A stretch of DNA of 64,000 nt from Spartobacteria bacterium. Its GTDB lineage: Bacteria; Verrucomicrobiota; Verrucomicrobiia; Chthoniobacterales; UBA6821. The translations under genes were made by a program, and so were the position numbers. Under the pieces are notes generated by a model, which was not told where the DNA came from, did no database searches, and worked only from the letters and a program-made list of their open reading frames with translations. The stretch is from the NCBI GenBank assembly GCA_947471565.1, contig CANIVT010000003.1, forward strand, positions 62,001 to 126,000, in the 5' to 3' direction. Within the stretch, counting starts at the first letter, position 1; each line of letters begins with the position of its first letter. Shown here piece by piece: positions 8,541-36,137 of this stretch.

Positions 8541-8700
8541 TTCGCGCGGAGACGCAGAGGCGCGGAGGAAATTTCAGCGAAATCCGATCTCTCAAATTTT
8601 TGTACATCTCTACCAATCCCTATTCAAAAACGTTCAGCCATGACTTTTCTCAACATCATTTCCCCCCTCTTCTCGGCGTCTCTGCGTCTCCGCGCGAGAA
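8541..8700. repeat. Inverted-arm dispersed repeat, GC-rich family (copy 1)
   Basis: Left arm 8541-8568 and right arm 8674-8700 are near-perfect reverse complements built on CGCGCGGAGACGCAGAG, with about 105 AT-richer bases between. The same core recurs at 19710, 20811, 26228, 36106 and 61864. The right arm lies inside the 5-prime end of the lipoprotein gene at 8640. Confidence 0.85.
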
Positions 8701-9195: not shown

Positions 9196-9263
9196 GAGCA
9201 AAGAGGTTCAAGGTGGGAAGGTGGGGCCGAAGGGAACGAGTATCTCTGTTCCTCAGGCTTTTC

Positions 9264-9350
9264 CTAACAGTCTAACAGTCTAACAGTCTAACAGTCTAAC
9301 AGTCTAACAGTCTAACAGTCTAACAGTCTAACAGTCTAACAGTCTAACAG
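9264..9350. repeat. 8-base tandem repeat, about 11 copies
   Basis: The unit TCTAACAG is repeated without any mismatch ten times after a 7-base partial copy, 87 bases in all. It lies between the lipoprotein gene and the convergent phosphatase gene. The unit is not a multiple of three and the array is not coding. Perfect copies suggest recent slippage, so copy number should vary between strains. Confidence 0.97.
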
Positions 9351-9375
9351 CCTTCAGCCTTTCCCTAGTCCCCGA

Positions 9376-11698: not shown

Positions 11699-11730
11699 AA
11701 AACGCCCGGGTTGCCCCGGGCGTTTTTTTT
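11699..11730 (+). terminator. Intrinsic terminator after ilvC
   Basis: A 10-base stem AACGCCCGGG / CCCGGGCGTT with a 4-base loop is followed by a run of eight T. It ends 25-56 bases past the ilvC stop and before the aldolase ATG at 11795, so it separates the two units. Confidence 0.92.
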
Positions 11731-11794
11731 GTTGCGGGAAATCCTCCTGAATAGGCTCGACGAAGCACGGGTTTTGCTACGAACTAAACGCACC

Positions 11795-12859
11795 ATGATC
11801 AACGACATCAAAAACCTCCTCGGCGCCGATGCCGACTCCCTCCTCAACCATACCTGCAAGACGGTCTCCAAGGATCTCCTGCACCTTCCCGGACCCGATT
11901 TCGTCGACCGCATCCACATCGGTAGCGACCGCAATCCCCGCGTGCTGGCCAACCTCCAGCGTCTGTACGGCACGGGCCGCCTCGCCAACACCGGCTACCT
12001 CTCGATTCTCCCGGTCGATCAGGGCATCGAGCACTCCGCCGGTGCCAGCTTCGCCGCGAACCCGATCTACTTTGATCCCGAGAACATCGTGAAACTCGCC
12101 ATCGAGGGCGGTTGCAACGCCGTGGCCTCCACCTACGGCGTCCTGGGGAGCGTGGCGCGGAAGTACGCCCACAGGATCCCCTTCCTGGTAAAGATCAACC
12201 ATAACGAGCTCCTCACCTACCCCAACCAGCACAAGGAGATCCTCTTCGGCACCGTCGAGGAGGCCTATGACATGGGTGCAGCCGCCATCGGCGCGACCAT
12301 CTACTTCGGCAGCGAGGACGCCACCCGTGAGATCATCGAGATCGCAGCAGCATTCCGCCGCGCCCACGAACTCGGCATGGCGACCGTCCTCTGGTGCTAT
12401 CTCCGCAATGACGCCTTTAAGAAGGACAAGGACTACCATCTCTCCGCCGACCTCACCGGTCAGGCCAACCACCTCGGCGTCACGATCGAGGCAGACATCA
12501 TCAAACAGAAGCTCCCAGAGAACAACGGCGGCTTCAAGGCACTCAACACCGGTGCCTCCAGCTACGGGAAGCTCGACGAGCGCATCTACACCCAGCTCAC
12601 CACCGATCACCCGATCGACCTTTGCCGCTACCAGGTCGTGAACTGCTACATGGGCCGCGCCGGCCTCATCAATAGCGGAGGAGCCTCCGGTGCCCACGAT
12701 TTCGCCGAGGCGGTCCGCACGGCGGTCATCAACAAGCGTGCCGGCGGCACGGGACTGATCTCCGGTCGCAAGGCCTTCCAGCGTCCGATCGAGGAGGGAG
12801 CCAAGCTCCTGCACGCGATCCAGGACGTCTATCTCTGCCCAGAGGTCACGATTGCCTGA
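11795..12859 (+). CDS. fbaB: Class I fructose-bisphosphate aldolase, FbaB (DhnA) type
   Basis: Schiff-base aldolase splitting or making fructose 1,6-bisphosphate in glycolysis and gluconeogenesis. 354 residues. [19 protein letters not shown] is at 72-90, [11 protein letters not shown] near 130-140, and the Schiff-base Lys237 is in [12 protein letters not shown]. The archaeal-type class I enzyme is found in many bacteria beside or instead of the class II form. The ATG at 11795 is chosen because upstream open codons run through the terminator hairpin. No Shine-Dalgarno motif is seen. Confidence 0.94.
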
Positions 12860-12955
12860 TCCGGATAAAGCGGGGCTTGCCCTTTTCATGCTGGGGTACG
12901 TTGTCATCCCTCGAGCTATCGTCAAGATAGCCCTCGGTCTTCCGTCTGCCCGATC

Positions 12956-13015
12956 ATGAAAATTGCGGCGCCCGACTTTGCCCGTATCTTCTCAAAAGAA
13001 GAATTGATCAAATGA
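12956..13015 (+). CDS. Possible 19-residue leader peptide ahead of the TPR gene
   Basis: A short frame, MKIAAPDFARIFSKEELIK, overlaps the next ATG as ATGA at 13012. It may couple translation or be a remnant. A small hairpin, GCTATC-GTCAA-GATAGC, lies upstream at 12915-12931. Nothing else supports it. Confidence 0.25.
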   Translation: MKIAAPDFARIFSKEELIK

Positions 13016-19709: not shown

Positions 19710-19851
19710 TCGCGCGAAGCCGCGGAGACCGCTAAGGGATAGGGATTTGAAAACTCAAAAGCCACAAAAGGCACAAGAAGCACAAGAGTTGGAGCTCTTT
19801 CCTTTCTAAGTCCCATATATCATTTATCCGCGGTCTCCGCGGCTCCGCGTG
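19710..19851. repeat. Inverted-arm dispersed repeat, GC-rich family (copy 2)
   Basis: Left arm 19710-19733 and right arm 19828-19851 match as reverse complements over GCCGCGGAGACCGC and flanks. The middle holds a different short family, GCCACAAAAGGCACAAG at about 19760, a CACAA-type tandem. The right arm includes the GTG start of tilS. No open frame for a transposase is present. Confidence 0.85.
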
Positions 19852-20802
19852 AAACCTCTTTCTTTTCAGTTTTCGCAATCAGTTCCCATTCTTGGGAAAA
19901 AGAAAAAGCTAATCGTCGCCGTGTCTGGTGGGGCCGACTCGGTCGCCCTGCTTCATCTCCTGATTGAGGCGGGATACCGCAACCTCGTGGTTGCTCATTT
20001 CAATCATCGCCTACGGGGTAAAGCTTCTGATGCTGACGCCACCTTTGTGGAGAAACTCGCCAAGAACCTCGATCTTCCCTGCGAAATCGGAGAAGGTGAT
20101 GTTCGTAAGCTTGCCGCCAAATGGAAGTCCTCTGTGGAAACAGCAGCCCGAGAAGCCCGCTATGGCTTCCTCGCCGAAACAGCCCGCAAGCATCGAACAC
20201 GTGCCGTAGTGTTGGCCCACCATGCCGACGATCAGGTCGAAACCTGCCTGTTTAATTTTCTAAGAGGCTCCGGCATCGCCGGACTCTCCGGCATGAAGCC
20301 CAGCACAATGAGAGTTGTTCAAGGAGTGGAGCTGGAACTTCTGCGCCCCCTCCTCGCGATGCAGAAGGCCGATCTCCTAGCCTATCTGAAAGAACGAAAG
20401 ATCCGCTTCCGTGAGGATGCCACCAATGCCGTGCCCGAGGCATCACGTAATAAACTCCGCCTCAAAGTCCTCCCCCTGATCGAGAAACTGCTCGGCCCCT
20501 CCTTCAAGGGATCGATCGTGCGTAATGCCAACCTCCTTGCTGATGAGGAAGATCTTCTCTCCTCACTCTCAGCGCCAATGGCTCTCCGCGAGAAACTCCC
20601 GGTGAAGCTACTCAGGGAACTTCACCCCGCCCTCCGCAGGCGCGTCCTGCATGCTTGGCTGAAGAATCAAGGAATCGAGGAACCGGGCTTTGCCGAAGTG
20701 GAACGCACAGCCTTCCTGCTTGATCCCAAAGGCCCCGCGAAGATCAACCTCCCGGCCAACCGTCATGCCCGGAGACGGGCAGGGGTGCTCTTTATCGAGT
20801 AG
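19849..20802 (+). CDS. tilS: tRNA(Ile)-lysidine synthase
   Basis: Modifies the wobble C of tRNA-Ile(CAU) to lysidine so that AUA is read; normally essential. 317 residues. PP-loop SGGADS at 26-31, VVAHFNHRLRG near 48 and LAHHADDQVETCLFNFLRGSG near 122-142, all typical. The GTG start lies inside a dispersed repeat arm, and no earlier start fits. The next in-frame possibilities would cut into the PP-loop domain, so the repeat seems to have become the gene start. Confidence 0.93.
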   Translation: MKPLSFQFSQSVPILGKKKKLIVAVSGGADSVALLHLLIEAGYRNLVVAHFNHRLRGKASDADATFVEKLAKNLDLPCEIGEGDVRKLAAKWKSSVETAAREARYGFLAETARKHRTRAVVLAHHADDQVETCLFNFLRGSGIAGLSGMKPSTMRVVQGVELELLRPLLAMQKADLLAYLKERKIRFREDATNAVPEASRNKLRLKVLPLIEKLLGPSFKGSIVRNANLLADEEDLLSSLSAPMALREKLPVKLLRELHPALRRRVLHAWLKNQGIEEPGFAEVERTAFLLDPKGPAKINLPANRHARRRAGVLFIE

Positions 20803-20842: not shown

Positions 20843-20942
20843 AGGCTTGGAAGTTCGGATGCAGGGCTAGGCGCGCAAGCGAAGCTGTAGTGAACTACTG
20901 CGAGCGAGCAGCAACAACGCTCTGCGCCGAAATCGCAAGCCT
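20843..20942. repeat. 100-base palindromic element between tilS and proS
   Basis: Outer arms AGGCTTG (20843) and CAAGCCT (20936-20942) pair over 7 bases. After a 4-by-4 internal loop, TTCGGATGCAGGGC pairs with GCTCTGCGCCGAA with one bulge and one wobble. The interior has GTAGT-GA-ACTAC and the related GCAAGCGAAGC and GCGAGCGAGC units. It lies exactly in the convergent gap, ending 6 bases from the proS stop. It may be a mobile palindromic repeat, a structured RNA or a bidirectional terminator. Confidence 0.7.
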
Positions 20943-20948
20943 TATTAA

Positions 20949-22478
20949 CTAATAGGATTTGCCGAAGATAACTCGGCGTGCGCTCGGTTCGCCGCTGAAC
21001 GGACAGACACCCGCCTCCACCGGAAACTCCTCCGATTCATCGGGAATACAGCGGATCGTCACCTTGAGGTCTTCCTTGATCCTAGCCTCGACCTCGGGAC
21101 TTCCATTCCAGTGGGTGTAGGCGAAGCCGCCGTGGATCTCGGGCTTGTTGGGATTCTGCGGGGTAAAGAAGGCGTAGAACTCTTCCTTGGAGTCAATCTT
21201 GCGGGTGTTTTCGCGGCGGAAGGCAAGCGCACGGTCGAGCAGGGTCTGCTGGATCTCGCTAAGAATCTCGGGGATGCGGTCGGCCAGCGTCTCGACAGGA
21301 AGGAATTCCTTCTCCTTGGGTCCTTTGTCGCGGCGAGCCACGGCGGCGCTGCCTGACTCGAGGTCACGGGGGCCGATCTCGATGCGGACGGGCACACCCT
21401 TCTTGATCCATTCCCAGCTCTTCACCCCGCCACCAAGGTCGCGGGCATCGACCTCGACGCGGACAGCTTCGCCCGCGTAGGCGGAAGCCCTGAGGGCAGC
21501 GGCGATCTCCTCGGCCTTGGCAAGCACGGCGTCCTGGGTTTCGGGTTTCGGCGTGATGGGAATAATCACCACCTGCGTGTCGGCGATACGGGGCGGCAGG
21601 ACGGCGCCATCATCGTCCCCGTGGGCCATCAGCAGGGTGCCGATGAGTCGGGTGCTGACACCCCAGGAGGTGGTCCAAGCATGCTCCTCGGTGTTGTTGC
21701 GGGAGAGGAACTTGATGTCGGAGGCCTTCGCAAAGTTCTGACCGAGGAAGTGCGAGGTGCCGGCCTGGATCGCCTTGCGGTCCTGAACCATGGCCTCGAT
21801 GCAGTAGGTGGTGACGGCACCGGGGAAGCGTTCGCTCTCGCTCTTCTCGCCGCGGATCACGGGGATGGCGAGGAAGTCGCGGGCGAAGGTCTCGTAGACC
21901 CCGAGCATCTTGATCGTCTCCTCGATGGCTTCCTTCTCGGTCTCATGGGCCGTATGTCCCTCCTGCCAGAGGAACTCGGCAGTGCGGAGGAACAATCGAG
22001 GGCGAAGCTCCCACCGGACGACGTTGGCCCACTGGTTGAGCAGGATCGGAAGATCGCGGTAGGACTTCACCCACTTCGCATAGGTCGACCCAATGATGGT
22101 CTCGGAGGTCGGACGAACGATGAGCGGCTCGGTGAGCTCTCCGGCGGGAACAAGCTTCCCATCCTTGAGCTCGAGGCGGTGGTGGGTGACAACCGCGCAT
22201 TCCTTGGCGAAGCCCTCGACGTGGTCGGCCTCCTTCTGGAGGTGACCGAGGGGAATGAAGAGGGGGAAGTAGGCGTTCTTGTGGCCGGTCGCCTTGAACA
22301 TGCTGTCCAACGCACCCTGCATCCGCTCCCACAGGGCATACCCCCAGGGCCTGATCACCATGCACCCGCGGACCTCCGAGTTCTCGGCAAGTTCCGCCGC
22401 ACGGACGACCTGCTGGTACCACTCGGGAAAATCCTCCCCACGCTTCGGGGAAATCGCGCTTTCTTGGCCTTTGCTCAT
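20949..22478 (-). CDS. proS: Prolyl-tRNA synthetase, archaeal/eukaryotic-like short type
   Basis: Charges tRNA-Pro. 509 residues, without the inserted editing domain of the common bacterial type. Motif 1 region GCMVIRPWGYALWERMQGAL, motif 2 around RWELRPRLFLRTAEFLWQEG (about 145-165), anticodon domain and the C-terminal extension ending GKSY, with a terminal Tyr as in this type. Convergent with tilS across the palindromic element. Confidence 0.95.
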   Translation of the reverse strand: MSKGQESAISPKRGEDFPEWYQQVVRAAELAENSEVRGCMVIRPWGYALWERMQGALDSMFKATGHKNAYFPLFIPLGHLQKEADHVEGFAKECAVVTHHRLELKDGKLVPAGELTEPLIVRPTSETIIGSTYAKWVKSYRDLPILLNQWANVVRWELRPRLFLRTAEFLWQEGHTAHETEKEAIEETIKMLGVYETFARDFLAIPVIRGEKSESERFPGAVTTYCIEAMVQDRKAIQAGTSHFLGQNFAKASDIKFLSRNNTEEHAWTTSWGVSTRLIGTLLMAHGDDDGAVLPPRIADTQVVIIPITPKPETQDAVLAKAEEIAAALRASAYAGEAVRVEVDARDLGGGVKSWEWIKKGVPVRIEIGPRDLESGSAAVARRDKGPKEKEFLPVETLADRIPEILSEIQQTLLDRALAFRRENTRKIDSKEEFYAFFTPQNPNKPEIHGGFAYTHWNGSPEVEARIKEDLKVTIRCIPDESEEFPVEAGVCPFSGEPSARRVIFGKSY

Positions 22479-26227: not shown

Positions 26228-26318
26228 CTCGCGCGGAGACGCAGAGAACGCGGAGTTTTTGAATTAATGGAAGATCTCTCTGCAGTCGCTTCTCTGCGTC
26301 TCAGCGCCTCTGCGGGAA
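26228..26318. repeat. Inverted-arm dispersed repeat, GC-rich family (copy 3)
   Basis: Left arm 26228-26256 has CGCGCGGAGACGCAGAGAAC; right arm 26288-26318 is the reverse type, TTCTCTGCGTCTCAGCGCC. About 31 bases separate the arms. The right arm ends 3 bases before the ispE stop codon. It fills the convergent larE-ispE gap. Confidence 0.85.
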
Positions 26319-36105: not shown

Positions 36106-36137
36106 TTTTCCCGCAGAGACGCAGAGGCGCGGAGATC
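36106..36137. repeat. Single arm of the GC-rich dispersed repeat
   Basis: TTTCCCGCAGAGACGCAGAG and flanks lie between psd and the rhodanese-like gene. No inverted partner is seen within 150 bases. Confidence 0.75.

Follow-up and report, generated by a model that had tools for sequence, protein, structure and literature searches.

A palindromic repeat family of Spartobacteria located at stop codons, with a possible role as a gene 3'-end hairpin

The 100-nt palindrome between tilS and proS is a member of a dispersed family in a freshwater Spartobacteria genus. Its members are repeated, conserve their structure, are locked in one orientation, lie directly behind stop codons and recur at orthologous core genes. 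The family is read here, with a probability of about 0.55, as a palindromic repeat derived from a mobile element and retained as a hairpin at gene 3' ends. The case is a clean one, with a single homologous element in one orientation abutting core-gene stops in 16 species. Turnover of its sequence under a preserved structure is traceable gene by gene in these 16 species. The old question addressed is how palindromic repeats reach positions downstream of genes and whether they are put to use by the host. Coordinates refer to the window, that is, the whole stretch of 64,000 nucleotides analysed (Table 1).

Table 1. Repeat copies, structural elements and adjoining genes (window positions unless a locus is named).
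Feature	Position	Strand	Basis or remark
Repeat copy, 100 nt	20843-20942	+	Best-folding strand, adjoining gene transcribed from the other strand; fold, alignment, covariation
Outer 7-bp stem, 5' arm	20843-20849	+	Fold; covariation helix 1; partner 20936-20942
Outer 7-bp stem, 3' arm	20936-20942	+	Fold, covariation
Second stem (13 pairs), 5' arm	20854-20867	+	Bulged A 20859; U of U.G at 20860
Second stem, 3' arm	20919-20931	+	Covariation helix 2; G of U.G at 20926
Inner helices, GA-rich internal loops (GCGAGCGAAGC / GCGAGCGAGC) and apical GTAG(TGAA)CTAC hairpin	20873-20912	+	Fold; helices 3, 4
Spacer, 6 bases, repeat to proS stop codon	20943-20948		
proS, gene whose 3' end bears the repeat	20949-22478	-	Pfam
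tilS, convergent neighbour	19849-20802	+	Pfam
Second copy of the family, degenerate	12873-12973	-	R1 23.9 bits, E 3.3e-4; R2 35.2 bits, E 2.4e-7
Aldolase gene, DeoC/LacD-family	11711-12859	+	Pfam
Nested GCCGAGTGCTGGGAAGCACGGAGTAGCC module	L250 1233-1419; also L268, L291, L267, L286		

Fold, covariation and folded strand

The sequence and coordinates of the palindrome in the preliminary description are correct. The 6 bases left over in the gap lie on the proS side, between the repeat and the end of proS (20949); on the other side, 40 bases separate the repeat from the end of tilS (20802). Folded as RNA, the + strand reaches -45.5 kcal/mol (mean of 200 shuffles -34.9, z -3.27) and the - strand -38.1 kcal/mol (z -1.91). 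The nested stems, bulge and wobble first read from the letters are real: the outer stem has 7 pairs, the second stem 13, and an apical hairpin is present. GCGAGC units recur within the 100-nt copy.

Covariation, proposed earlier as a check, is present. The fold of the window copy, minus one pair, was tested as given on an alignment of 105 copies (A1). Under this fold 90.7% of the alignment cells pair, compensatory double changes occur at 26 of the 32 pairs, and the covariation score is 0.384 (0.130 shuffled, 0.087 or less for slid structures). The bulge and the wobble are hallmarks of the family. The unpaired A (A17; alignment column 18, window 20859) is invariant across the 105 copies, and the adjoining U.G (20860.20926) is retained in 98 of them. 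When copies at one host gene are compared across species, 208 double changes preserve pairing, against 31 expected with random partners, in an alignment that is model-fitted and with a possible contribution from gene conversion between copies.

An intergenic hairpin with strong covariation need not be a free-standing RNA. The palindrome at 20843-20942 is not a single structured RNA; it is one of a family of about 40 copies in the genome. A small RNA acting in trans and made independently from the + strand would agree with the stable fold, the covariation and the favoured strand. This reading is made highly improbable by the number of divergent copies, about 40 in a genome and every one tied to a gene 3' end, and by the lack of any match to Rfam covariance models, at the gathering cut-off or at E up to 5.

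The consensus energy is -17.9 on the window + strand and -11.3 on the host coding strand. With DNA parameters, the strand opposite the host coding strand folds lower in 92 of 110 copies; with single-copy RNA folds it does so in 60 of 110, that is, without strand preference. A hand count of the inner pairs, from which the fixed U.G and two positions with poor pairing are excluded, yields 63 G.U versus 29 A.C, and is taken as a lean, not proof, since the copies are non-independent. The conserved U.G by itself was rejected as an indicator of strand: read on the opposite strand it becomes an A.C, just as an A.C mismatch at another position becomes a G.U. The better fold opposite the coding strand argues against a simple mRNA 3' hairpin, for which the reverse is predicted. 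By these folding models, single-stranded DNA or an antisense transcript fits as the folded molecule at least as well as mRNA. The earlier wording "RNA structure, not a plain DNA palindrome" holds as far as the structure is concerned, given the covariation and the conserved wobble and bulge.

Placement at stop codons and host genes

Orientation is fixed and position narrow. With the element oriented as in the window, the right-hand gene points into it in 102 of 105 callable cases, and the host stop codon usually lies -2 to about 15 nt from the element end. The commonest distance is -2, at which the AG of the element completes a TAG stop. TAG stops are over-represented (51/95 hosts, 28/89 background genes). 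Counted independently of the gene finder, ORFs of at least 90 codons end within -3 to 17 nt on the host side of 83 of 103 copies and on the other side of 10 of 103. From the stop-codon placement and fixed orientation across the family, the window copy belongs to proS; tilS is ruled out as its host by the family-wide tie to the convergent gene. The second window copy, detected by the covariance model only, lies 13 bases beyond the aldolase stop codon, in the same geometry as at proS.

Host genes are mostly core genes. The 95 copies fall into 55 host-gene ortholog groups, often with identical stop distance, and form 60 orthologous pairs by hand count, compared with about 2 expected for random genes. 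Genes confirmed by Pfam are proS, tilS, an aldolase, a PhnA-domain protein, glmS-like and acs-like; other host names come from reading translations. Host genes of the window genome usually bear a family member in five other species, often of another subfamily. At given genes the stop distance is the same in several species, and at others copies are lost, a pattern resembling that of old, shared sites. At proS, congener G003 has the same copy, the copies of G009 and G015 abut the stop codon, and G005 has a shortened remnant. In about ten congeners the tilS-proS gap, when compared, contains no proS-side copy, so the repeat is dispensable there.

Where this gap lacks the repeat (congener loci L078, L080-L089), a putative glycosyltransferase-like gene occupies it. 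Its alternative content at these loci is remnants of another putative small gene, with CAGGGATGAAGGGGAT-type repeats flanking.

Intrinsic terminators are scarce in the window (3 of 38 transcription-unit ends), which leaves room for a 3'-end role of the repeat. The repeat is not itself an intrinsic terminator, defined as a GC hairpin with a sense-strand U-tract. This candidate was rejected: the U-tract is missing, T is infrequent past the repeat, and a terminator is found in the 80 nt downstream of 1 of 109 copies.

On the preferred reading, of a mobile-derived palindrome kept as a 3'-end hairpin, the family would have started as mobile palindromes that inserted at stop codons or beside them, with the TAG supplied by some of the ends. 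Copies in a favourable orientation would have been retained, and the hairpin would cap the 3' end of the host gene. The cap may act by blocking 3' exonucleases, by ending transcription without a U-tract or by stopping convergent read-through. A requirement for a specific folded shape would explain why pairing, bulge and wobble outlast the changes in sequence.

Another intergenic family, CGCGGAGACGCAGAG and its relatives, occurs in the window at 8545, 20815 and 26232 (+), at 26292-26306 and 8680 (-), and additionally at 36112 and 61874. Several of its copies lie 13-24 bases past a stop codon, that of tilS among them, and it may be another 3'-end repeat. At 9258-9355 of the window the 8-mer CTAACAGT is repeated in tandem, in about 11 units.

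Distribution, origin and relation to known repeats

In the window genome (2.28 Mb, 46 contigs), DNA search finds 29 copies and the covariance model 40-41; the search for further copies suggested in the preliminary description thus finds about 40. All 15 congeners searched have copies, 9-56 each by covariance model. In the sister genus this model detects distant relatives: at E up to 0.01 one genome has 62 matches and a second has 22, and at E up to 0.001 two other genomes have none. DNA search alone gave zero in congener G014 and in the sister genus, where the covariance model detected copies. Matches in the rest of the order are weak and sporadic. Among named genome records, those containing the exact 29-base core belong to uncultured Spartobacteria, and most evidently come from lakes. 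Viral carriage of the repeat was rejected, as viral contigs contain no match to the exact 25-base core.

Record RFPR01000032.1, titled Proteobacteria, is probably a mislabelled Spartobacteria MAG (compare the copy-bearing congener G003). Copies downstream of various host genes share a module of about 85 nt (..GCCGAGTGCTGGGAAGCACGGAGTAGCC..) in their apical loop, a repeat within the repeat.

One sister-genus genome contains dozens of matches, many of them equal-scoring, and the fetched copies are near-identical. Some of these copies have 19-nt inverted ends, ATACCATCTCCC/GGGAGATGGTAT. A second sister-genus family begins with CTAG; in 8 of 8 copies examined, this TAG serves, in frame, as the stop codon of the host ORF. 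Judged from these sequences, the near-identical, MITE-like copies and the stop-supplying CTAG family make a mobile origin of the repeat likely. No target duplication is found, the flanks being without excess identity at k = 2-9. The Y1 transposase (PF01797; RAYT/Y1_Tnp) is absent in the window genome and in 12 of the 14 congeners searched; mobilisation by RAYT was rejected because Y1_Tnp is missing from most copy-bearing genomes.

A selfish miniature element and nothing else, that is, a MITE- or REP-like palindrome that folds as single-stranded DNA and is acted on in that form by a putative recombinase, would explain stop placement and orientation as insertion preference, and the apparent conservation as repeated insertion or gene conversion. 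It is favoured by the MITE-like relatives, by folding that prefers one strand, most clearly with DNA parameters, and by the low similarity at orthologous sites: copies there are barely more alike than random copies (0.734 versus 0.700), and the ortholog is the best match for 23 of 103 copies. The lack of target duplication and of the Y1 transposase, within the searches just given, and the old look of sites with the same stop distances in several species and losses elsewhere, count against this explanation, which is considered unlikely.

REPs in the narrow sense are 20-40 bp long, bear a GTAG end tag and come with a RAYT transposase. The earlier assignment to a REP-like class is apt in kind, the repeat being dispersed, palindromic, extragenic and located at gene 3' ends, but fails by the narrow definition in size, tag and transposase. 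The repeat is about 100 nt long, ends in AGGCTTG/CAAGCCT with GTAG confined to the apical stem, and is without RAYT in the window genome. Further differences from REPs are an orientation to the stop codon that is locked in nearly 100% of cases and internal covariation with conserved bulge and wobble. Like the GTAG class, it is found downstream of genes; REPs lie mostly downstream of genes, between convergent or unidirectional ORFs, and their ends often supply a TAG stop (PMC3733652). REP-bearing mRNAs act as structured substrates for both RNase R and PNPase (PMC12320835).

Small mobile palindromes of about 100-170 bp at many intergenic sites are represented by the enterobacterial intergenic repeat units (127, 168 and 103 bp) and by further MITEs (PMC2759123). 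The repeat resembles MITEs in its terminal inverted repeats, represented by the outer 7-bp stem with compensatory change and by the 19-nt ends of the sister-genus relative. It differs from them and from the enterobacterial units in fixed orientation, old orthologous sites and no target duplication in the genus. In E. coli, inverted repeats are enriched directly past stop codons, around gene ends (PMC6060812). Those are unrelated sequences and largely intrinsic terminators, whereas the repeat described here is one homologous family without a U-tract. The nearest published parallels are the GTAG REPs (PMC3733652) and the E. coli post-stop inverted repeats (PMC6060812).

Contacts with integron cassette arrays

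True integron integrases are present in three congeners and partial genes in two more. Restricted to a single family of attC ends, the attC search located 48 sites. A repeat copy lies within about 1.5 kb of an attC match in 11 of 24 contigs examined, one or two being expected from copy density; contigs are counted, some representing the same host gene across species (pyk, acs), and independent events are fewer. In seven contigs the distance from the repeat to the start of an attC is about 6-19 nt, and the two are tail to tail every time. In G005 the copy behind acs is truncated and has the end of an array inside it; the related copy of G009 is whole. The recurrent tail-to-tail contact suggests a reason for where cassette arrays end.

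These contacts, and the presence of true integrases and canonical attC arrays in congeners, speak for an attC-like or docking site, in which integron integrase or cassettes recognise the folded repeat and arrays insert beside it. The architecture is parallel as well. Both are imperfect palindromes directly 3' of an ORF, stem-spacer-stem, with a variable apical part; in the repeat, an outer 7-bp stem, an unpaired spacer and an inner stem with an extrahelical base follow one another, and the strand opposite the coding strand is the better-folding one. In attC the bottom strand folds and recombines (PMC8352920). The repeat is nevertheless not classed as attC, since the core is missing: its ends are AGGCTTG/CAAGCCT, as against CCTAAC/GTTAGG in true attC (L215), and the outer stem is without the RYYYAAC/GTTRRRY core of the attC beside these integrases. 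Unlike attC, it lies outside arrays, behind core genes and inverted relative to the neighbouring array. The junction of repeat and array falls at no fixed base, and the window genome has about 40 copies and no intI above the cut-off. Several array-bearing host genes carry the repeat in other species; arrays and repeats may thus merely share neutral convergent gaps. Recognition by the integron is accordingly judged improbable. Its more specific form, a chromosomal, stop-codon-anchored site of folded DNA, attC-like without a core, which would be recognised by or recruit the integron machinery and fix the ends of arrays, is regarded as quite improbable.

Similar decayed attC remnants with AAACGATCGTTTTT follow copies in G005 and in the window genome (L240 1353-1521, L244 1350-1521). 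This suggests that the window genome has a cassette site that is old and shared.
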